64,000 nt of DNA from an uncultured Alphaproteobacteria bacterium (GTDB taxonomy: Bacteria > Pseudomonadota > Alphaproteobacteria > HIMB59 > GCA-002718135): contig CACOPD010000002.1 in the NCBI GenBank assembly GCA_902628835.1, positions 204,218 to 268,217 of the forward strand, read 5' to 3'. Shown one piece after another: positions 4,111-62,238 of the stretch. The notes under the pieces were generated by a model. It was given only the letters and a program-made list of their open reading frames with translations, did not search any database and was not told the DNA's origin. Position 1 is the stretch's first letter. Every line of letters begins with the position of its first letter. Made by a program: the position numbers and the translations under genes.

Positions 4111-5262
4111 ATGAATGCATTAATTAATGCCTTAAATGAAAAAACTAAAATAATTCTTCAAAATGATGGAAGATTATTAAAAAAATCTTTTTTTGGTCTT
4201 TTGCTTTTAACACTTGTTTTTCAAGGTGGTGAATTCGGAGAAGTAATTAGAACATCAATGGTAGATGCATACATTCAAGTATCAGTTTTCGTTGGATTTA
4301 CATTATTTGTATTTATTGGCTTGGATAGTTTAACAAAATTTGATGTTAAACATTTTTTATCAAAGACTCAGAAATTTCATGTTGGTATATCTGCTTTTTT
4401 AGGAGCTATTCCTGGATGTGGAGGAGCAATCATTGTGGTAACTCAATACATACAAGGGAGAATTTCATTTGGTTCTTTAGTTGCTGTCCTAACAGCCACT
4501 ATGGGTGATGCAGCATTCTTAATTCTTGCTGTCGAACCATCAACTGGTTTATTAATTTTTGTTCTAGGAATAATTGTGGGTTCAATATCTGGTTATATTA
4601 TAGATTTTATCCATGGCATTAATTTTATGCAGAGTGAAACAAACTTAAAAGTTGAGTTTGAAAAAGTTAGTAAAACTTTTGTATCTAATTTTAATTATTT
4701 CTGGCTTTTCTTATTTATACCAGGTTTTGTAATGGGTATTTTAGTAGCTTTTCAAATTGAATTTAATTCTTCGGTTTATAATTCATTTTTACTTTTAATT
4801 GCATCAGCAGGCGCAATACTTTCAATCTTTATGTGGTCTTTAAACCCACTGAGTGATTTTCAATGTTCAACTGATAAGACTAGAGGATTTTTATCAAGAG
4901 TTGTAGATACAACAAATTTTGTAACTACTTGGGTAATTAGTGGGTTTTTAGTATTTGAAATTTTTATGTACTTTACAAGTTTAGATTTAAAGATTTTCTT
5001 TGATCTGTGGCTTCCATTTGTACCATTGGTTGCTATTTTATTTGGTTTCTTACCTGGATGCGGTCCACAAGTTGTTGTAGCTACGTTTTATCTAAATGGA
5101 TATATTCCTCTTTCAGCTGAACTAGGAAATGCAATTTCAAATGATGGAGATGCGTTATTCCCAGCTATAGCTCTTGCTCCAAAAGCTGCAATTTTAGCAA
5201 CACTTTATAGTGCTATACCCGCCTTGGTAGTTGCATACGGATATTTTTATCTATTTGAGTAA
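4111..5262 (+). CDS. putative manganese transporter (10-11 TM, ArsP_2-like)
   Basis: A 383-residue polytopic membrane protein with two similar halves. Each half has a PGCG signature, [12 protein letters not shown] near residue 97 and [12 protein letters not shown] near residue 313. Each is followed by a conserved acidic stretch: [13 protein letters not shown] in the first half and [18 protein letters not shown] in the second. This matches the family annotated as putative manganese transporter / heavy-metal exporter. Direction of transport is not certain: divergence from mntR supports manganese, and the fold relatives include exporters. Codon use is like its neighbours. Confidence 0.8.
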
Positions 5263-12470: not shown

Positions 12471-15400
12471 ATGCACCAAAAAACACCAAAACAATTGGTA
12501 AACTCAGGTTTAAAGTTTCAAGCACTTGAGCCTAGAATTATGTTTGATGGAGCAGCAGTTTTTACTGGTGTAGAAGCTCTCGATCAAATTGAAAATCAAA
12601 ATACATCACAAATTCAAAATGATATTAATCAAAATGATAGTGTTGAAGTATTATTAAAAAATAAAGATACAAAAAAAGAAATAGTTTTTATTGATAAAGG
12701 TGTTGATGACTATCAAAGTATAGTGAATTCTATTGATAGTTCAAAATCAATTTATCTAATAGATACTCAAGAAAATGGTTTTGAAAAAATTCAAGACGTA
12801 TTAAGTAATCAGACTGATGTGGATGCAATTCATATTGTTGGTCACGCAAACGTAGGACAAGTCGTATTAGGAAACTCAGTATTAAATGCTGAAACAATTA
12901 ATTCTTTTAAAAGCAATCTTGAATCAATTGGTGAAAGTTTAACAAAAGACGGCGATATACTTTTTTATGGTTGTAACTTAGCAAAAGGTGAACAAGGAAA
13001 ACTTTTTGTTCAACAAATTGGAAATATAACGCAAGCTGACATTGCAGCATCTGATGATATTACAGGTGAGGGTGGTGATTGGGATTTAGAAAAAAAATAT
13101 GGCATTGTTGAAACTAAAGGTATTCAAGTTGTTGATTATAAACATTCTCTTCTTCAAAATGGAATCTCATCCTTAACTGGTTTTGTAGAAAACACTGGAA
13201 CAAATTTACGAGCTGGTACTAGTGATGGTGGACACGCAGCAGCTGCCTCTAACCACACTGATGGTAACAAACCTTTTGTTATCACTCTAGAGAGAGAAAA
13301 TATAAATTCAGGTACTTTTAATTTCTATAAAGTTAATAGTTTATCTACTGGATTTGAGGAAAACAATAGTGGTGTTCAAACTGCAGGTCCTGATATAACT
13401 TCAAATACTACAACTGTTGATGCTTCATCAACACCTATGAACTCATACTATGTTTATGCAACAGAAAACTCAGGAAGAAATGATGTTAGAGAAGTAACTT
13501 TTGAAAACGAAATCTTGGGTGTGTGGTTCAATATGAGTAATGTTATTGAATATTCAGGAGTAGATAAAAGTAGCGGAAGCTATCATACTATAAGCGAACA
13601 TGGAAGTGGCAGCCAAAATGCTTGGAGTACTGAAAAATTAAAATGGGAATGGGGTACAAGTGTAACCGATAGTAGTAAGCCTTCAGGTCACAAAAGTGAT
13701 TGGTTTGGTGTCGATACCGATTCAAATACACTTTATGTTGGATTTAATAATGGAAGTCAGCATGGTGATATTATTAGAGTATTTACTGCAGCAGCATCCA
13801 ATCAAGCACCTGTAGCTGTTAACGATACAGATAGTGTTAATGAAGATGCAACTGTAACTAAAACAGGCTCTCAAAATGATGTTTTAAATGATGATAGTGA
13901 CCCTGATGGCGATACAATCACAGTTACTCAAATAAAACATAGTACAACTTCAAACTCTGCTGTTAGCGGAAGTACTACTTATAGTAATGGTACATCAGTA
14001 ACTGGAACTTATGGTACATTAACTATTGGTGCTGATGGTTCTTACACCTATGTTGCTGATCAATCAGCTGCTGATGATTTGGATGCGGGTGATACAGCCA
14101 CTGATGTTTTTACATATACAATATCTGATACTGTAGACACTGCTACAGCTACTTTAACTATAACTGTAACAGGTATCAATGATGCACCAGTTGCAGTTGA
14201 TGATACAGACTCAGTTGCTGAAGATGCAACAGTTACAAAAACTGAATCGCAAAATGATGTTTTAAATGATGATACAGATGCGGATGATTCAGCATCTCTA
14301 ACTGTAACGCAAATTAAGAAAGATGGTGGATCAAATTCTGCTGTAAGTTCAGGAAGTACTTATAATTCTAGCGGTACATCAGTAACTGGAACTTATGGTA
14401 CATTAACAATTGGTGCTGATGGTTCTTACACCTATGTTGCTGATCAATCAGCTGCTGATGATTTGGATGCGGGTGATACTGAAACAGATACATTTGTTTA
14501 TACACTTTCCGATGGAACAGATACTGATACTGCAAATTTAGTTATTACTGTTACAGGAGTCAATGATACGCCAAGTGCACAAAATGATGTTGGTGTAATT
14601 AATGAAGGAGAAACTCTAACGGTTACAAATGGTTCTAACCCTGTACTTTCAGGTTCTTACGATGCAACAGGTGAAAACTCAGGTGATTTGATGGATACAA
14701 ATTCTAGTTCACATAAAGATAGTGACCCTGATGATTCTCCAACACTGAGAATTTCCGCAATACAACCTAGCGGTGGCTCATCATCTTCTGTTGCTAGTGG
14801 TAGTTCTTATAATAGTAGTGCTACTTCAGTAACTGGTTCTTATGGTACTCTTACAATTGGAGCAGATGGATCATACGCATATGCCGCTAATGATAGTATA
14901 TCTGGTTTTGATGCTAATGAGACTTTAACAGATACTTTTACCTATACTTTATCTGATGAACATGATGCTACAGATACCGCAACTTTAACGATCACACTTT
15001 TAGGTCAAGATAATGAGGGTCCCACTGGTGTAAATAATACCAATGCTGTTAATGAAGATGCAACAGTTACAGTTACAAATGGAACAAGTGGTGTAACAGG
15101 TGATGTTTTAATTAATGATACTGATCCAGAAGGCGATGGACTTACAGTTACAAAAATTAAAAAGAGTGGAGGATCTGATTCTAATGTCTCTTCAGGTAGC
15201 TCATACAATAGTAGTGGAACATCAGTAACAGGAACTTATGGTACATTAACAATTGGTGCTGATGGATCATATACTTATGTTGCTGATCAAGCAGCAGCTG
15301 ATGCATTAGACGCTGGTGATACTGAAGATGATGTTTTTGTTTATACATTATCAGATGGTAATGGTGGAACTGATACAGCTAATATCACAATTACAGTTAC

Positions 15401-18400
15401 GGGTATTAATGATGATCCTGTTGCAGTAAATGATACTGACTCAGTTAATGAAGATGCAACTGTTACAAAAACAGGTGCTCAAGATGATGTGTTAAATGAT
15501 GATACCGATGCTGATGCTTCTGCATCATTAACTGTAACTAAGATTAGACCAAATGGTGGATCAGACTCTACTGTAAGTTCTGGCAGTACGTATAATTCAA
15601 GTGGCAGGTCAGTTACCGGTACTTATGGAACATTAACTATAGGTGCAGATGGTTCATATACCTATGTTGCTGATCAAGATGCTGCAGATGAATTAGATGC
15701 TAGTGATGCTGTTACAGATGTTTTTGTTTATACAGTATCAGATGGAACGACTCCTGTTACTGCAACATTGACAATTACAGTTACTGGTGTGAATGATGCG
15801 CCTGTTGCGGTAAATGATACTGATGCTGTGAATGAAGATGCAACCGTTACAAAAACTGGATCGCAAAATGATGTTCTAAATGATGATACAGATGCCGATG
15901 ATTCAGCATCACTTTCAGTTACAGCAATTCAACCAAGTGGTGGTTCAAGTTCAAATGTTTCTTCTGGTAGTTCCTATAATAGTAGTGGAACATCAGTAAC
16001 AGGAACTTATGGTACTCTTGTAATTGGTGCTGATGGTTCATATACATACACGGCAGATCAATCAGCTGCTGATGCACTAGATGCAGGTGATACAGCTACT
16101 GATGTTTTTACTTATACTCTATCTGACGGCACAGCAACAGACACGGCAACTTTAACAATTACTGTTACTGGAATTAATGATGCGCCTGATGCCATAGATG
16201 ATACTGATAGTGTTAACGAAGATGCAACTGTTACAAAAACTGGATCGCAAAATGATGTTTTAAATGACGATACTGATGCCGATGACTCAGCTTCTTTAAC
16301 TGTTACACAAATAAAGAAAGATGGAGGATCTAACTCAGCTGTATCTTCAAGTAGTACATATAATAGTAACTTCACATCTGTAACAGGAACTTATGGTACT
16401 CTTAAAATTGGCGCTGATGGTTCGTATACTTATGTTGCGGATCAAGCTGCAGCCGATGCATTAGATGCAAGTGATACTGTTACAGATGTGTTTGTCTACA
16501 CAATAAGTGACGGGACTGATACAGACTCAGCAAACTTAACAATTACTGTTACAGGTGTAAATGATGATCCAGTGGCAGTAGATGATACCGATGCTGTGGA
16601 TGAAAATGAAACTGTTACTAAAACAAATTCTCAAGATGATGTTTTAAATGATGATACTGATGCCGATGACTCAGCATCTTTAACTGTTACACAAATCAAA
16701 AAAAATGGCGGATCTAATTCTGCAGTTTCTTCAGGAAGTTCTTATAATAGTAGTGGTACTTCAGTAACAGGAACATATGGAACATTAACTATTGGGGCTG
16801 ATGGTTCATATACCTATGTTGCTGATCAAGCAGCCGCAGATGCATTAGATGCTGGTGATACAGAAACTGATGTGTTTGTGTATACAGTTAGTGACGGGAC
16901 TTCTACAGACACTGCCAACTTAACTATTACTGTAACTGGAGTAAATAATACACCTATTGCACAAAATGATGTTGGTGTAATAACTGAAGACAGTACTCTG
17001 ACCGTTGCTAATGGAGCTAATGCAAATGAGACTAATGATGCTGGCAGTACATTTAATGCGTCAGGTGAGCATTCTGGTGATGTTTTAGATACATCTTCTA
17101 GTTCTCATCAGGATAGTGATGCAGATGAGTCAGCAGTTTTAGTTGTTTCACAAATAAAAAAAACTGAAGGAGATAATTCAACCGTTTCCTCAGGCAGTTC
17201 CTATAATAGTAATGGAACATCAGTAACTGGAACTTATGGTACTCTTACAATCGGTGCTGATGGTTCTTATACGTATGTTGCTGATCAAGCTGCTGCAGAT
17301 AGTATTGCATTAAATGAGTCTCAAGATGATGTTTTTGTATACACTATGACAGATGGCACTGAAACTGTAAGCGCAAATCTTACAATTACAGTTTTGGGTA
17401 CAAATGATAATCCTACTGCACAAGATGATGTCGGTGTTATTAATGAAGGAGGAACTTTAACTGTTCAAAATGGAGATAATGCAAATGTTTCTGGAAGCTA
17501 TGATGCTAATGGTGAAAATTCAGGAGATGTAATCGATACAACATCTAGTTCTCACAAAGATACTGATCTTGATACAAGTGATACTCTTTCTATTACAAAA
17601 ATTAAAAAAAGTGGAGGATCTGATTCAAATGTTTCTTCTGGAAGTTCGTATAATAGTAGTGGAACTGCAGTAACTGGAACATATGGTACTCTTACAATCG
17701 GTGCTGATGGATCATATAAATACGTTGCTCAGTCAGATATCGCAGGACTTAATGATGGAGCCACAGTTACGGATACGTTCACTTACACATTATCTGACGG
17801 AACAGCAACGACGACAGCTGATATTACAATAACGGTTATTGGTGGTGCTGCATCAAATAATTCTCCAAGTGCTGTAAATGATACTGATGCTGTCAATGAA
17901 GATGCTACAATTACAAAAACAGGTGCGCAAGATGATGTTCTAAATGATGATAGTGACTCCGATGGGGATACAATTACAGTTAATCAGATTCAACCAAGTG
18001 GTGGATCTGCTTCATCCGTAAGTGCTGGCAGTACTTATGATTCTAGTGGTACATCAGTAACTGGTACTTATGGTACTCTTACAATCGGTGCTGATGGTTC
18101 ATATACCTATGTTGCTGATCAAAGTGCTGCTGATGATTTAGACGCTAGTGATACTGCAACTGATACTTTTACATATAGAATTACTGATGGGACCGCTACA
18201 GATACTGCAACATTAACTATTACTGTTACTGGAGTAAATGACACTCCTTCTGCAGTCGATGATACCGATGCAGTTAATGAAGATGCAACTATTACTAAAA
18301 CAGGATCTCAAGATGATGTTTTAAATGATGATACCGATGCAGATGATGATGACACATTTTCTGTAACTGCAATACAACCAAGTGGCGGCTCTTCCTCTTC

Positions 18401-21400
18401 AGTAAGCTCTGGTAGTTCTTATAATTCAAGTGGTACATCAGTAACCGGAACTTATGGTACTCTTACAATCGGTGCTGACGGTTCATATACCTACGTTGCT
18501 GATCAAAGTGCTGCCGATGCATTAGATGCAAGTGATACAGCTACAGATGTCTTTACTTATACAATTTCAGATGGTGATGCCACTGATACTGCAACACTAA
18601 CTATAACAGTAACTGGAATAAATGATGATCCAGTTGCAGTAGATGATACTGATAGTGTGAATGAAGACGCAACTGTTACCAAAACTGGATCGCAAAATGA
18701 TGTTTTAAATGATGATACAGATGCGGATGATTCATCATCTGTAACTGTCACACAAATCAAAAAGGATGGCGGATCAAATTCTGCTGTGAATTCTGGTAGT
18801 ACTTATGATTCTAGTGGCACTTCAGTAACTGGTACTTATGGTACATTAACAATTGGTGCTGATGGATCTTATACCTATGTAGCTGATCAATCTGCTGCAG
18901 ACGATTTGGATGCAGGTGATACAGCCACTGATGTTTTTGTGTATACAGTTAGTGACGGGACTTCTACAGACACTGCCAACTTAACTATTACTGTTACAGG
19001 TATAAATGATGATCCTGCGGCAGTAAATGATACTGATAGTGTGAACGAAGATGCAACAGTTACAAAAACTGGATCGCAAGATGATGTATTAAATGATGAT
19101 ACGGATGCTGATGACTCAGCTTCTTTAGTTGTTACAAATATTCAACCAAGTGGAGGATCAAGTTCAACAGTTTCTTCTAGTACTACTTATAGTAATGGTA
19201 CATCAGTAACCGGAACTTATGGTACGTTAACAATTGGCGCAGATGGTTCTTATACCTACGTTGCTGATCAAGATGCTGCTGATGCATTAGATGCAAGTGA
19301 TACAGCCACTGATGTCTTTACGTATACTTTGTCGGATGGAACAGCGACAGATACAGCAACGCTAACAATAACGGTAACTGGTATCAATGACGATCCTGTA
19401 GCAGTAAATGATACTGATGCTGTCAATGAAGATGCTACAATTACAAAAACAGGATCAGAAGATGATGTTTTAAATGATGATACAGATGCGGATGATTCAT
19501 CATCTGTAACTGTAACGCAAATTAAGAAAGATGGCGGATCAAATTCTGCTGTAAGTTCAGGAAGTACTTATAATTCTAGTGGTACTTCAGTAACTGGTAC
19601 CTATGGTACGCTTACAATCGGTGCTGATGGTTCTTATACTTATGTTGCAGATCAATCAGCTGCAGATGATTTAGATGCAGGTGATACTGAAACAGATGTG
19701 TTTGTTTATACTGTCAGTGATGGAACTACAACTCAAACAGCAAATTTAACTATAACCGTAACTGGTGTGAATGATACACCTACCGCAGTCGATGATACCG
19801 ATGCCGTTAATGAAGATGCTACAATTACTAAAACTGGATCTCAAGATGATGTTTTAAATGATGATACCGATGCTGACGACTCAGCTTCTCTTAATGTGTC
19901 AGCAATTCAACCAAGTGGAGGATCGAGTTCAACAGTTTCTTCTGGTACAACTTATAGCAATGGTACCTCTGTCACAGGTACTTATGGTACATTAACAATT
20001 GGTGCTGATGGTTCTTATACGTATGTTGCTGATCAAGCAGCCGCAGATGCACTAGATGCAAGTGATACAGCAACTGATGTCTTTACGTATACTTTGTCGG
20101 ATGGCACAGCAACAGACACAGCAACTCTAACTATTACAGTTACTGGTGTAAATGATACACCTGTTGCAGTCGATGATACTGATAGTGTTAATGAAGATGC
20201 AACTGTTACAAAAACAAGTTCTGAAGATGATGTTTTAAATGATGATACAGATGCGGACGATTCATCTTCTGTCACTGTAACACAAATTAAAAAAGATGGC
20301 GGATCTAATTCTGCAGTTTCTTCAGGTAGCTCTTATAATAGTAGTGGGACATCTGTAACTGGAACTTATGGTACATTAACTATTGGTGCCGATGGTTCGT
20401 ACACCTATGTTGCTGATCAATCAGCTGCTGATGATTTGGATGCTGGAGATCAAGTAACAGATGTGTTCACTTACACGGTTTCTGATGGTTCAGTTACAGA
20501 TACTGCAAATATAACAATCACTGTAACTGGGGTAAATGACACACCTTCTGCAACTAATGATACTGATAGCGTTAATGAAGATGAAACTGTTACTAAAACA
20601 GGTGCGCAAGATGATTTATTAAATGATGATTCAGATGCAGATGATAGTGCTAGTTTATCTATAACAAATATATCTCACTCCAATGGAAATACAGGTACTG
20701 TTGCATCAAGTTCAACTTATGCAAGTAATGGCACACAAATTGTTGGAACATACGGAACATTAACAGTAGGAGCTGATGGTTCTTATACGTACACTGCTGA
20801 CCAAGATGCTGCAGATAGTATTGCCGATGGCTCAAGTGAAACAGATGTTTTCACTTATACACTTTCAGATGGTTCAGCGACAGATACAGCTACAATAACA
20901 ATTACTGTTAGTGGAGCTGACAATGAAGTTTCCGGCGTCAATGACACTGGAGCTGTCGATGATGATAGCACTTTAAGTGTTGGAAATCAAAGCGCTGGTG
21001 TTCTATCCAATGATACCGATAATGGTAGTGCTGCATTATCTGTAGGAGAAGCTTCCGTCAGTGCAATTCGAACAGGTAGAGAAAGTGCCAGTGGCACTGA
21101 TGGAACTATTGGATCAGCACTTGTTGGAACTTATGGATCACTTACACTTAATTCAGATGGTACATATGATTATACCGCTAATACTGATGCTGCTGAAGCA
21201 CTTGCTCCAACGCAAACAGCAGTCGATTACTTTACTTATACTATTTCAGATGGAACGAGTACCGATACAGCTGAATTACAAATAACTGTTACAGGTATTA
21301 ATGATGCGCCAACATCTACTACACCTGCAACTATATTCGCAACAGAAAATCAATCAGTAATTATTCAGACAAAAACCTTCTTTAGCGATCCAGACCCAAG

Positions 21401-22673
21401 TTCTAATTCTTTTGGTCAATTAACTTACTCAGTGAGTGGTTTACCAGCTGGATTAACTATAAATTCTAATGGTAAGGTTACCGGTATTGTTACTCAAGGT
21501 ACTTATACATTTACTGTTACAGCTACTGATGGTGGTAATCTATCTACTCAACAAACATTTACTCTAGAAGTGGCTAAAAGTAATGACGTTGATGCAGTTC
21601 CTGAAAAACTAAAAATTAATAAGAAAAATATTGAGAAAAAAGTAAAAAATAAAACTGTTGTATTTAAAGAAAGATCAGTTGTAGAAGTTGCTAATCTTGA
21701 AGTTGCCAAAGATTATTCATTTAATGGAGGAATGCGTGTAGTTGATGTAGCAGTTGAAGATTTAAGTAATAATAATACTGATGATCCTACACCAATGAGT
21801 AAAAGTTTTCTTAACGAAGGGACTATTTTAGGTTTTGCTATTGGTGATGATTACAAAATTAATGTTAAGCAATATACAGCAACAATGGAAAATGGTTCAG
21901 CTGTTCCTGATTGGGTAAAAGTAGATCCAAAAACTGGTCAAACTCTAGTTCAGTTTCCTGACAATATATATTCAATTGATATAAAAATTATTGCAATTGA
22001 TAAAGATAATACAACAAGAGAAATAGATCTTACTCTTGATCAATCATCAATAAAGCCAGATAAAAGTTTGAAAAGAAGTTTAGAAAACTTTATTGATAGA
22101 AGTTCCACACTAAAATCAGAAGTATTTATTGATAATAATGGAAAGATGCAATTAAATGCTCTTAATAAAAATCAAATTGATCTAAACAGAACAGCTAATC
22201 TTAATAATAGTGAAATTGTAGATATCGAGAACAATTCTAATAACAATTCTTCTCTATCGACTTTAAAATTAGCATCAATTGATAAAAATTTAGATAAAAT
22301 TACAGTTAAGATAGCTGATGATAAAAGAAATCAAGTTGTAAAGTATTCATTAAGTATACCTGAACAAGGTTTGACTATAGGTAATCAAATACCAAACTGG
22401 CTTAAGATTAATGCTGAAACTGGTGAAATAGAAGCTACACCTCCACAAGGTTTAGATAATATTAAGTTACAAATTATTGCTGAAGATGAAGATGGTACTT
22501 TACGAACATTAGAAGTAGATCTAGATTTATCGTCTAATGATCAATCAAAATTACCTAATAAAACTATAATAGATAACGAATTAGAAAAGTTTGCTTCTCT
22601 ACAGGACCAAATTCATGTTAAATACAATGATTATGAAAATTATGGAGATAAAATTGTTAAAGTTGCTAGCTAG
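12471..22673 (+). CDS. giant LEPR/DUF4347/VCBS-repeat surface protein
   Basis: A 3400-residue acidic repeat protein, likely an exported adhesin. Residues 19-28 are LEPRIMFDGA, the motif of the LEPR-XLL class of large exported proteins. Residues about 65-225 form a DUF4347 domain with HIVGHAN (His125) and LFYGCNLAKG (Cys168). A unique beta-rich region follows to about 443. Nineteen VCBS-type repeats, mostly of about 128 residues, span about 443-2941 with a NDTD.VNEDATVTKT start and TYGTLTIGADGSYTYVADQ core. A cadherin/Ig-like domain (AGLTINSNGKVTG) follows, then a Lys-rich linker and two more such domains (VPDWVKVDPKTGQ, IPNWLKINAETGE). No Sec signal peptide and no RTX nonapeptides were seen. 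It starts the operon that continues with three adaptor genes; its end overlaps the first. Confidence 0.9.
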   Translation: MHQKTPKQLVNSGLKFQALEPRIMFDGAAVFTGVEALDQIENQNTSQIQNDINQNDSVEVLLKNKDTKKEIVFIDKGVDDYQSIVNSIDSSKSIYLIDTQENGFEKIQDVLSNQTDVDAIHIVGHANVGQVVLGNSVLNAETINSFKSNLESIGESLTKDGDILFYGCNLAKGEQGKLFVQQIGNITQADIAASDDITGEGGDWDLEKKYGIVETKGIQVVDYKHSLLQNGISSLTGFVENTGTNLRAGTSDGGHAAAASNHTDGNKPFVITLERENINSGTFNFYKVNSLSTGFEENNSGVQTAGPDITSNTTTVDASSTPMNSYYVYATENSGRNDVREVTFENEILGVWFNMSNVIEYSGVDKSSGSYHTISEHGSGSQNAWSTEKLKWEWGTSVTDSSKPSGHKSDWFGVDTDSNTLYVGFNNGSQHGDIIRVFTAAASNQAPVAVNDTDSVNEDATVTKTGSQNDVLNDDSDPDGDTITVTQIKHSTTSNSAVSGSTTYSNGTSVTGTYGTLTIGADGSYTYVADQSAADDLDAGDTATDVFTYTISDTVDTATATLTITVTGINDAPVAVDDTDSVAEDATVTKTESQNDVLNDDTDADDSASLTVTQIKKDGGSNSAVSSGSTYNSSGTSVTGTYGTLTIGADGSYTYVADQSAADDLDAGDTETDTFVYTLSDGTDTDTANLVITVTGVNDTPSAQNDVGVINEGETLTVTNGSNPVLSGSYDATGENSGDLMDTNSSSHKDSDPDDSPTLRISAIQPSGGSSSSVASGSSYNSSATSVTGSYGTLTIGADGSYAYAANDSISGFDANETLTDTFTYTLSDEHDATDTATLTITLLGQDNEGPTGVNNTNAVNEDATVTVTNGTSGVTGDVLINDTDPEGDGLTVTKIKKSGGSDSNVSSGSSYNSSGTSVTGTYGTLTIGADGSYTYVADQAAADALDAGDTEDDVFVYTLSDGNGGTDTANITITVTGINDDPVAVNDTDSVNEDATVTKTGAQDDVLNDDTDADASASLTVTKIRPNGGSDSTVSSGSTYNSSGRSVTGTYGTLTIGADGSYTYVADQDAADELDASDAVTDVFVYTVSDGTTPVTATLTITVTGVNDAPVAVNDTDAVNEDATVTKTGSQNDVLNDDTDADDSASLSVTAIQPSGGSSSNVSSGSSYNSSGTSVTGTYGTLVIGADGSYTYTADQSAADALDAGDTATDVFTYTLSDGTATDTATLTITVTGINDAPDAIDDTDSVNEDATVTKTGSQNDVLNDDTDADDSASLTVTQIKKDGGSNSAVSSSSTYNSNFTSVTGTYGTLKIGADGSYTYVADQAAADALDASDTVTDVFVYTISDGTDTDSANLTITVTGVNDDPVAVDDTDAVDENETVTKTNSQDDVLNDDTDADDSASLTVTQIKKNGGSNSAVSSGSSYNSSGTSVTGTYGTLTIGADGSYTYVADQAAADALDAGDTETDVFVYTVSDGTSTDTANLTITVTGVNNTPIAQNDVGVITEDSTLTVANGANANETNDAGSTFNASGEHSGDVLDTSSSSHQDSDADESAVLVVSQIKKTEGDNSTVSSGSSYNSNGTSVTGTYGTLTIGADGSYTYVADQAAADSIALNESQDDVFVYTMTDGTETVSANLTITVLGTNDNPTAQDDVGVINEGGTLTVQNGDNANVSGSYDANGENSGDVIDTTSSSHKDTDLDTSDTLSITKIKKSGGSDSNVSSGSSYNSSGTAVTGTYGTLTIGADGSYKYVAQSDIAGLNDGATVTDTFTYTLSDGTATTTADITITVIGGAASNNSPSAVNDTDAVNEDATITKTGAQDDVLNDDSDSDGDTITVNQIQPSGGSASSVSAGSTYDSSGTSVTGTYGTLTIGADGSYTYVADQSAADDLDASDTATDTFTYRITDGTATDTATLTITVTGVNDTPSAVDDTDAVNEDATITKTGSQDDVLNDDTDADDDDTFSVTAIQPSGGSSSSVSSGSSYNSSGTSVTGTYGTLTIGADGSYTYVADQSAADALDASDTATDVFTYTISDGDATDTATLTITVTGINDDPVAVDDTDSVNEDATVTKTGSQNDVLNDDTDADDSSSVTVTQIKKDGGSNSAVNSGSTYDSSGTSVTGTYGTLTIGADGSYTYVADQSAADDLDAGDTATDVFVYTVSDGTSTDTANLTITVTGINDDPAAVNDTDSVNEDATVTKTGSQDDVLNDDTDADDSASLVVTNIQPSGGSSSTVSSSTTYSNGTSVTGTYGTLTIGADGSYTYVADQDAADALDASDTATDVFTYTLSDGTATDTATLTITVTGINDDPVAVNDTDAVNEDATITKTGSEDDVLNDDTDADDSSSVTVTQIKKDGGSNSAVSSGSTYNSSGTSVTGTYGTLTIGADGSYTYVADQSAADDLDAGDTETDVFVYTVSDGTTTQTANLTITVTGVNDTPTAVDDTDAVNEDATITKTGSQDDVLNDDTDADDSASLNVSAIQPSGGSSSTVSSGTTYSNGTSVTGTYGTLTIGADGSYTYVADQAAADALDASDTATDVFTYTLSDGTATDTATLTITVTGVNDTPVAVDDTDSVNEDATVTKTSSEDDVLNDDTDADDSSSVTVTQIKKDGGSNSAVSSGSSYNSSGTSVTGTYGTLTIGADGSYTYVADQSAADDLDAGDQVTDVFTYTVSDGSVTDTANITITVTGVNDTPSATNDTDSVNEDETVTKTGAQDDLLNDDSDADDSASLSITNISHSNGNTGTVASSSTYASNGTQIVGTYGTLTVGADGSYTYTADQDAADSIADGSSETDVFTYTLSDGSATDTATITITVSGADNEVSGVNDTGAVDDDSTLSVGNQSAGVLSNDTDNGSAALSVGEASVSAIRTGRESASGTDGTIGSALVGTYGSLTLNSDGTYDYTANTDAAEALAPTQTAVDYFTYTISDGTSTDTAELQITVTGINDAPTSTTPATIFATENQSVIIQTKTFFSDPDPSSNSFGQLTYSVSGLPAGLTINSNGKVTGIVTQGTYTFTVTATDGGNLSTQQTFTLEVAKSNDVDAVPEKLKINKKNIEKKVKNKTVVFKERSVVEVANLEVAKDYSFNGGMRVVDVAVEDLSNNNTDDPTPMSKSFLNEGTILGFAIGDDYKINVKQYTATMENGSAVPDWVKVDPKTGQTLVQFPDNIYSIDIKIIAIDKDNTTREIDLTLDQSSIKPDKSLKRSLENFIDRSSTLKSEVFIDNNGKMQLNALNKNQIDLNRTANLNNSEIVDIENNSNNNSSLSTLKLASIDKNLDKITVKIADDKRNQVVKYSLSIPEQGLTIGNQIPNWLKINAETGEIEATPPQGLDNIKLQIIAEDEDGTLRTLEVDLDLSSNDQSKLPNKTIIDNELEKFASLQDQIHVKYNDYENYGDKIVKVAS
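13798..21294 (+). repeat. 19-copy VCBS coding repeat array
   Basis: Nineteen tandem coding repeats, usually about 384 bases. Copies 3, 9 and 10 carry a longer variant (QNDVGVI start and a GENSGD-type insert). Some distant copies are nearly identical at DNA level: 16875-16933 and 18936-18994 share 59 identical bases, which suggests recent recombination or gene conversion. Asp-rich loops suggest calcium binding. Confidence 0.92.
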
Positions 22674-30067: not shown

Positions 30068-30775
30068 ATGTTCAAATTTGATAAACTTGTATTTGGAGAC
30101 GCAGGGTGGGGTGATGAATTTCTTATAGCGACACTCATGACTCTACTTGTAAGTATTTTATCAATGGGTTTAGGGCTTTTTTTAGCAATTATTACAGTTT
30201 GGGCAAAGATAATACAAAATGGAATAACAAGATTTATTGCAAATTTTTATACAACAGTAATTAGGGGTGTTCCTGAATTATTAGTCATTTATTTAATTTT
30301 CTTTGGCGGTAATGCTGTTGTTATGAGTATTGCTAAAGTATTTGGTTATAATAAGTATATAGAACTAAATGCACTTACAATTGCAACAATTGCCATTGCA
30401 GTAATATCAGCAACATATTCTAGTGAAGTTCTAAGAGCTGCCTATTTATCTATATCTAAAGGTCAAATAGAAGCTGCAAAAGCATTAGGTATGAACAAAT
30501 TCAGTATTTTTTTCAAAGTTATTACACCACAAGTAATTAGACATGCTTTACCAGGAATTGGGAATGTATGGCAAATAACGCTTAAAGACACATCTCTAAT
30601 TTCTGTAACTGGCCTTGTTGAAATTATGCGTCAATCTAGAATATCTTCTAATGTCGAGCATTCACCTTTAACTTTTTTAATAACAGCTGCAATATTGTAT
30701 TTATGCCTAACGACAATCTCTGGAAGGGTTTTTAAAACTTTAGAAGTAAATTATTCAAAAGGATTTTCAGCATGA
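30068..30775 (+). CDS. polar amino acid ABC transporter permease (HisQ-like)
   Basis: A 235-residue inner-membrane permease with about five membrane segments. The EAA loop that contacts the ATPase is EAAKALGMNKFSIFFKVITP, and TVIRGVPELLVIYLIFFG is the typical HisQM/ArtQM-type opening. It belongs to the histidine/octopine group of amino-acid importers. It overlaps the next permease by 4 bases. The matching ATPase and binding-protein genes are not adjacent. Confidence 0.88.
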   Translation: MFKFDKLVFGDAGWGDEFLIATLMTLLVSILSMGLGLFLAIITVWAKIIQNGITRFIANFYTTVIRGVPELLVIYLIFFGGNAVVMSIAKVFGYNKYIELNALTIATIAIAVISATYSSEVLRAAYLSISKGQIEAAKALGMNKFSIFFKVITPQVIRHALPGIGNVWQITLKDTSLISVTGLVEIMRQSRISSNVEHSPLTFLITAAILYLCLTTISGRVFKTLEVNYSKGFSA

Positions 30776-49624: not shown

Positions 49625-50217
49625 TGCATCATCCTGGAACAAATAACAAGGTTTATAAAAAAATTAATGATAATTTTGAATGGTCAAAAGTTAATTTTGA
49701 AAAAATATCAAATATATTAAAAAAATATCCATCAAATAAAATTCAAAGCGCGGTAATACCACTCTTGGATTTGGCTCAGAGACAAAACAAAGGTTGGTTA
49801 AGTAAAAATTCAATGGAGAAAGTAGCTGAGACTTTAAGTATGTCTTATATAAGAGTTTTGGAGGTAGCTACATTTTATTCAATGTTTAATCTTGAGCCAA
49901 TTGGAAAGAATTTTGTCCAGATTTGTAGAACTACACCATGCTGGTTAAGAGGAAGTGATAAGCTTTCAAAAGTTGCTCAAGAAGTTTGTAATACTCAAAT
50001 TGGAGGTACAAGTGATGATAAAAAATTCACAGTTGTTGAAGTAGAATGTTTAGGAGCTTGTTGCAATGCACCTATGATACAAATTAATGATGAATATTAT
50101 GAAGATTTAGATGAAGAAAACTTTAGACAACTTCTAAATGATTTAAAAAGTAATAAACCAATTAAAATTGGTTCTCAAATTGGAAGAAAATCATCTCAAC
50201 CAGAAAGAGAATTTTGA
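49624..50217 (+). CDS. nuoE: NADH-quinone oxidoreductase subunit E
   Basis: A 197-residue thioredoxin-fold 24-kDa subunit. The four 2Fe-2S ligands are visible in [12 protein letters not shown] and [13 protein letters not shown]. It lies in the NADH-dehydrogenase module with NuoF and NuoG. The stop overlaps the nuoF ATG as TGATG. Confidence 0.96.
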
Positions 50218-60768: not shown

Positions 60769-61356
60769 ATGTCATTAGATAAAATTAAAAATCTATTAGA
60801 TAAAAACAATTTTGATTTTCATTTTATTGAATCTGTAGATTCTACAATGTCAGAGGTTAAAAAACTTATTTATAATAGAAATATATGTTTGATGGCAAAT
60901 GAACAAAAAAAAGGATTTGGAAGACGAGGAACAACTTGGGAAAGTCCAAAAAATAATGTCTATATTTCTATTTTATCTAAAAATATATTGCCAATAGAAA
61001 ATCATTTTTTAAATAATGCTTTTATTACTAATATGATCTGTTCTGTGATTGAAAATATTTGTAATGTTAAAACTCAAATTAAATGGCCAAATGACATTTT
61101 AATTAATAAAGAAAAAATTTCTGGAATAATTTCTGAAATATTTAGTATCAAAAGTGATAAATATATAAATACTGGTTTTGGAGTTAACATAGTATCTTCT
61201 CCAAAAATTAAAAATTATCCAACAACTAATATTAATAAATACAATAAAGAAATTAACAATTTTTATTTTGTATATGAAATTATGGAAGAGTATTTTAACA
61301 ATTTTAAACAACTTTTAAATAATCATGAAAAAATTATATTTAGGAAGCAATATTAA
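60769..61356 (+). CDS. birA: biotin--[acetyl-CoA-carboxylase] ligase, catalytic part; frame broken near 3' end
   Basis: A 195-residue frame with the biotin protein ligase catalytic core: NEQKKGFGRRGTTWESPKNN binds biotinyl-AMP, and IKWPNDILINKEKISGIISE carries the catalytic Lys and the following strand. It lacks the regulatory helix-turn-helix of E. coli BirA, as usual in alphaproteobacteria. The frame ends early with HEKIIFRKQY. The missing C-terminal SH3-like domain is encoded in the next frame (61334-61477). Removing one A from the six-A run at 61328-61333 would restore a protein of about 235 residues. Either a sequence error, a real mutation or slippage. Confidence 0.88.
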   Translation: MSLDKIKNLLDKNNFDFHFIESVDSTMSEVKKLIYNRNICLMANEQKKGFGRRGTTWESPKNNVYISILSKNILPIENHFLNNAFITNMICSVIENICNVKTQIKWPNDILINKEKISGIISEIFSIKSDKYINTGFGVNIVSSPKIKNYPTTNINKYNKEINNFYFVYEIMEEYFNNFKQLLNNHEKIIFRKQY

Positions 61357-61477
61357 ATTAAAAATTGATGAACAAAATGTAAAACAAGGAATATTTCATA
61401 ATCTTAATCCTGATGGTTCAATCACTTTAAAAAATAATATTAATTTTGAAAATATTTATAATGCTAGAATAATTTAA
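61328..61477 (+). pseudogene. birA: out-of-frame C-terminal domain of birA
   Basis: After the A-run at 61328-61333, the next frame reads LYLGSNIKLKIDEQ and then VKQGIFHNLNPDGSITLK, the small C-terminal domain of biotin protein ligases (GSxVxV... GxxxGIDxDGxLxL pattern). It stops with TAA at 61475-61477, whose last base starts the coaX ATG. That TAATG junction matches others in this operon and shows the intact gene once reached here. Confidence 0.8.
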
Positions 61478-62238
61478 TGATTGTTATAGATGCAGGTAAT
61501 ACGAATATAGTTATAGGTTTTTATACAAAAAACAAATTAATTAAAATTATTAGATTAAAAACGGAAAAAAAAGTCAATATTACACAAAAAGAAATAAATA
61601 AATTTTTTAAATCTAACAAAAAATTGACTAATAATCTTAAAGATAGATATTGTATCTTGTCCTCTGTTGTACCTTCTTTAAATTTAATTTTTAAAAATAT
61701 TTTTCAAAAAAATAAATTCAAATTTTATGTAATTAATCCAAAAAAAATATCATTTAGAAAGAGTATCAATTATAATCTAAATCAAATTGGAAGTGATCGA
61801 ATAGCAAACTATGCCTATGTGTATAGTAAGAAAATCAAAAACTGTATAATTATTGACTTTGGTACAGCTACTACTTTTGATATCATTAAAAACAATCAAT
61901 ACTCTGGTGGATTAATTTTTCCAGGTATAAATCTTTCAATGGATACACTTTTAAAAAATGCTGAATTATTAAAAACTTCAAAAATCTCAAAATCAAATAG
62001 AATTGTTAATAATAATACATCAGCTTCTATTCAATCAGGTTTCTATTTTGGTTATTTGCATGCAGTTAATGGCATATTAAAGCAAATTATTAAGGAGAAT
62101 AACTTTAAGCCCAAAGTCTATATTACGGGTGGTCTAGGTAAAATATTTAGGGATAAAATTATTTATAAACCTATATATATGGAACATTTGACATTAGAAG
62201 GAATAAAAGAAATCGGTAACAAACATTTTTATGAGTAA
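61477..62238 (+). CDS. coaX: type III pantothenate kinase
   Basis: A 253-residue ASKHA-fold kinase that starts coenzyme A synthesis. MIVIDAGNTNIVIGFY is the phosphate loop, QIGSDRIANYAYVY is the pantothenate-site motif, IIIDFGTATTFDII the second phosphate block, and YSGGLIFPGINLSMDTL the ribose region. It overlaps rnj by 8 bases. Confidence 0.95.
   Translation: MIVIDAGNTNIVIGFYTKNKLIKIIRLKTEKKVNITQKEINKFFKSNKKLTNNLKDRYCILSSVVPSLNLIFKNIFQKNKFKFYVINPKKISFRKSINYNLNQIGSDRIANYAYVYSKKIKNCIIIDFGTATTFDIIKNNQYSGGLIFPGINLSMDTLLKNAELLKTSKISKSNRIVNNNTSASIQSGFYFGYLHAVNGILKQIIKENNFKPKVYITGGLGKIFRDKIIYKPIYMEHLTLEGIKEIGNKHFYE

Follow-up and report, generated by a model that had tools for sequence, protein, structure and literature searches.

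A biotin--protein ligase gene that loses its reading frame partway through, with the rest of its coding sequence lying intact in the next frame, raises the question of whether it is a pseudogene, a recoded gene, or no broken gene at all. Such a birA occurs near the end of the 64,000-bp stretch of DNA analyzed here (the window), from an uncultured member of the Alphaproteobacteria, between a nuoN-like gene and coaX, the latter followed by an RNase J-like gene (the two end genes named by inspection). That the frame is broken in the assembled sequence is plain: the 5' birA frame (60769-61356, plus strand, as are the other parts of birA and coaX described below) encodes 195 residues, of which the sequence is native through residue 190 and then continues as IFRKQY before a stop. 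A sequence-only reading of the locus had recognized this break and attributed it to a single base in a run of six A at 61328-61333. The break and the run are both there; the proposed cause does not survive comparison with relatives.

The 5' product of the gene matches TIGR00121 at 101.6 bits (cut-off 83.1), the biotin--protein ligase family, and PF03099 at 58.7 bits across residues 22-138 (60832-61182), an intact catalytic domain in which the columns of the GRG(R)R and KWPND motifs are invariant in the alignment with relatives, as expected of a TIGR00121 catalytic domain. The C-terminal domain, unlike that of the intact ligase, does not follow in the same reading frame but is encoded only in the +1 frame, as 47 undecayed codons at 61334-61474. 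A search of this C-terminal piece against Pfam returned no domain over threshold, and structure was used to recognize it instead. As the sequence-only reading had also observed, the +1 frame stays open (61325-61477) and ends in a TAATG junction (61475-61479) where the ancestral birA stop overlaps the start of an intact coaX (type III pantothenate kinase, 253 aa, 61477-62238); among relatives this junction is conserved as TAATG or TGATG. The resulting 50-aa open frame, whose ATG lies inside the 5' birA frame, is probably not a gene, judging from the aligned sequences: in relatives that have this ATG (e.g. L003) its frame meets a TGA after three codons, and the frame is open in the window by virtue of the lesion described next.

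Close birA copies from the same genus, about twenty in one search and about fifty in another (~87-98% protein identity), are nearly all 244-aa frames, and the shorter ones that were checked stop at contig ends. The site itself was aligned across 38 of these copies. All of them carry the A-run without loss of frame, with six A in 37 and seven in the remaining copy (L018), and all 38 also contain 26 bp that are absent from the window. Immediately 3' of the run, two direct copies of ATTAT bracket the missing unit in the relatives; the window retains one, at the junction (61333-61337). Flanking direct repeats with one copy remaining are the signature of a microhomology deletion; were a 26-bp deletion placed at random in such sequence, its junction would show 5 bp or more of homology in ~1-2% of cases. 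This alignment identifies the lesion as a 26-bp microhomology deletion and not a one-base homopolymer change, although, because 26 is one less than 27, it looks like a one-base slip without relatives for comparison. A one-base indel in the run is thereby rejected, the run being conserved among relatives. We can likewise reject a truncated BirA common to the genus. The relatives do not end birA at the same early stop, and every other copy long enough to include this point has the intact form.

The junction is also private. Allowing up to 2 mismatches, the window's junction sequence was not found in any of the other 101 same-genus genomes (1/102 overall), as an artefact would predict, and as a private mutation would predict equally. 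The coding sequence downstream shows no sign of decay: over the 47 codons that follow the junction, ~1-2 amino-acid-changing and 3-4 silent bases separate the window from its nearest relatives, and, junction codon aside, the private changes of the whole gene with respect to the 38 relatives amount to one silent change upstream and one amino-acid change downstream. If the deletion is genuine it would therefore be recent. The earlier suspicion that the break was either very recent or not real is thus borne out by an undecayed downstream part and by relatives none of which share the break. Of the three causes then offered, sequencing or assembly error and true mutation both remain, whereas slippage on the A-run falls away, with the run ancestral and in frame and 26 bp gone.

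In a structure model of the intact 244-aa BirA of a relative (mean pLDDT 90), a helix spans residues 186-195 and a C-terminal domain rich in strands begins at residue 203; nearly all of the model aligns with solved biotin ligase structures. By this model, the window's BirA is predicted to keep its catalytic domain while losing the end of the helix and the whole C-terminal domain. Such a loss would matter in this organism. The genome is 84% complete and has one detectable birA; searches of it with PF03099 and TIGR00121 found no second copy, and a PF21948 match was rejected as a second biotin ligase, since it belongs to a lipoyl ligase family. We considered whether BirA might have become redundant through loss of biotin-dependent enzymes and rejected this: AccB is intact, with an EAMKTF biotin site and its gene adjoining that of AccC, as is pyruvate carboxylase, with an EAMKME site. 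Biotinylation is therefore needed, and with a sole detected birA and intact acceptors depending on it, real loss of BirA should be very costly.

What is left is a choice between an artefact and a private mutation, both of them ordinary causes, and the verdict that the break is no real feature goes with the former, which is the likelier. We consider it most likely, with a probability of roughly 0.6, that the 26-bp gap is an artefact of amplification or assembly. Misannealing at the 5-bp ATTAT repeat during whole-genome amplification, or a fault of assembly, would delete the 26 bp, shift the frame and remove the C-terminal domain from the predicted protein, with the A-run playing no part. The closest named genomes are AG-series single-cell records, including AG-337-I02, which is a genus name in the AEGEAN-169 group, order HIMB59 (PMC8692485), and we infer that the window's genome is likewise a single-cell assembly. 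The published benchmark for that kind of workflow gives rates per 100 kb of 1.5 for misassemblies, 3.0 for indels and 5.0 for mismatches (PMC9771814). Most chimeras formed in amplification have junctions with 2-21 nt of complementarity, a range into which the window's 5-bp junction homology falls; 85% of those reported are inverted, whereas the deletion here would be a same-strand and very short-range event, and joins on the same strand over less than 10 kb are rare among them (11/475; PMC1855051). It also counts against an artefact that amplification errors are usually outvoted by other reads, and that the same microhomology suits replication slippage in a living cell.

Isolated breaks of this kind were looked for at the gene level in contigs C1 and C2 of the window's genome and in a relative; this survey was used in place of a raw listing of indels between the window and its relatives, which was swamped by compensated indels and repeats. 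Private frame breaks affect 2 of 305 comparable genes in the window's genome and 0 of 304 in the relative, so that a generally error-ridden contig is rejected. The other broken gene, by appearance that of a trkH-like potassium transporter, lies on the same contig as birA but outside the window (C2 ~4804-4808); a run of T7 stands there against T6 in the relative, and in ~50 close relatives the frame runs uninterrupted through all 482 aa. This second private break counts in favour of an artefact at birA. Another same-genus genome (G006, C2 ~30137-30162) has a frame break of its own in the same trkH-like gene, different and again private. These observations fit a low-level background of isolated, single-genome breaks in this genome set. 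The survey did not count a T-run difference within the window, at 50215, among the broken genes. Separately, at ~14500-21700, inside a ~3400-aa open frame of repeated units (adhesin-like by appearance), the alignment with the counterpart in a relative is out of register.

A real private mutation, taking all of its forms together and including one that leaves a functional short enzyme, is possible, at something short of even odds. In its principal form, replication slippage between the ATTAT copies would have deleted the 26 bp very recently in this cell's lineage and so inactivated or weakened BirA; this would account for the clean 5-bp direct repeat at the junction, for the absence of later decay and for an assembly that bears no mark of error at this point. 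We nevertheless consider it rather unlikely, given that the only biotin ligase found would have been damaged while its biotin acceptors are intact, and that the intact form persists in every other copy in the genus that reaches this point.

Alternatively, the cell may tolerate a genuine deletion, with the 195-aa protein acting as a functional short class I biotin ligase that lacks the C-terminal domain. The catalytic domain is complete, and the literature on the need for the C-terminal domain is split. The best solved-structure match of this BirA family is the Aquifex ligase, an engineered version of which kept promiscuous labelling without its 63 C-terminal residues and lost it without 73, while a comparable cut inactivated a ligase derived from that of E. 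coli (PMC9293651). By our reading of the alignment the window's protein is cut at the equivalent of about Aquifex residue 177 of 233, which removes less than the 63-residue cut. Promiscuous labelling, however, differs from biotinylation of an acceptor, and the genus as a whole retains the C-terminal domain; a working short ligase is accordingly quite improbable. It would be a long shot that a wild marine bacterium has newly reduced its sole biotin ligase to the catalytic domain and survives, a natural counterpart of the truncated Aquifex ligase.

There is next to no chance that the cell still obtains the C-terminal domain through polymerase or ribosome slippage on the A-run or by translating the 50-aa frame separately. 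The two frames do overlap, an ATG opens the second, and a one-base shift would join both. Relatives, however, carry the run in frame and have no need of recoding; the joined product would still be short of residues in the helix and in the linker that leads into the C-terminal domain; with 26 bp missing, slippage at the run could not restore the ancestral protein; and inspection reveals no purine-rich ribosome-binding site before the ATG at 61325. Six A is in any case short for slippage. The one-base reading of the run and slippage upon it are, on the aligned sequences, refuted.

The case carries a caution, in that private breaks in essential genes of single-cell assemblies should not be equated with pseudogenes or recoding unless reads or relatives are consulted; here an apparent one-base slip beside an A-run was exposed as a 26-bp deletion by alignment with relatives. 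To programmed or compensatory homopolymer slippage the locus bears the likeness of an A-run beside a frame break, and it differs in that the run is in frame, is unneeded in intact relatives, and adjoins a lesion that is a 26-bp loss. It resembles the small microhomology-mediated deletions that arise by replication slippage or as amplification chimeras, having likewise lost one copy of a 5-bp repeat together with the intervening sequence. As for the protein, the relatives' BirA is comparable to class I ligases without a DNA-binding domain (the Aquifex aeolicus 2EAY/3EFS type), matching the Aquifex, Pyrococcus, Mycobacterium and Staphylococcus enzymes in both catalytic and C-terminal domains; the window's copy shares with them the catalytic domain and has lost the C-terminal one to the frameshift after residue 190.
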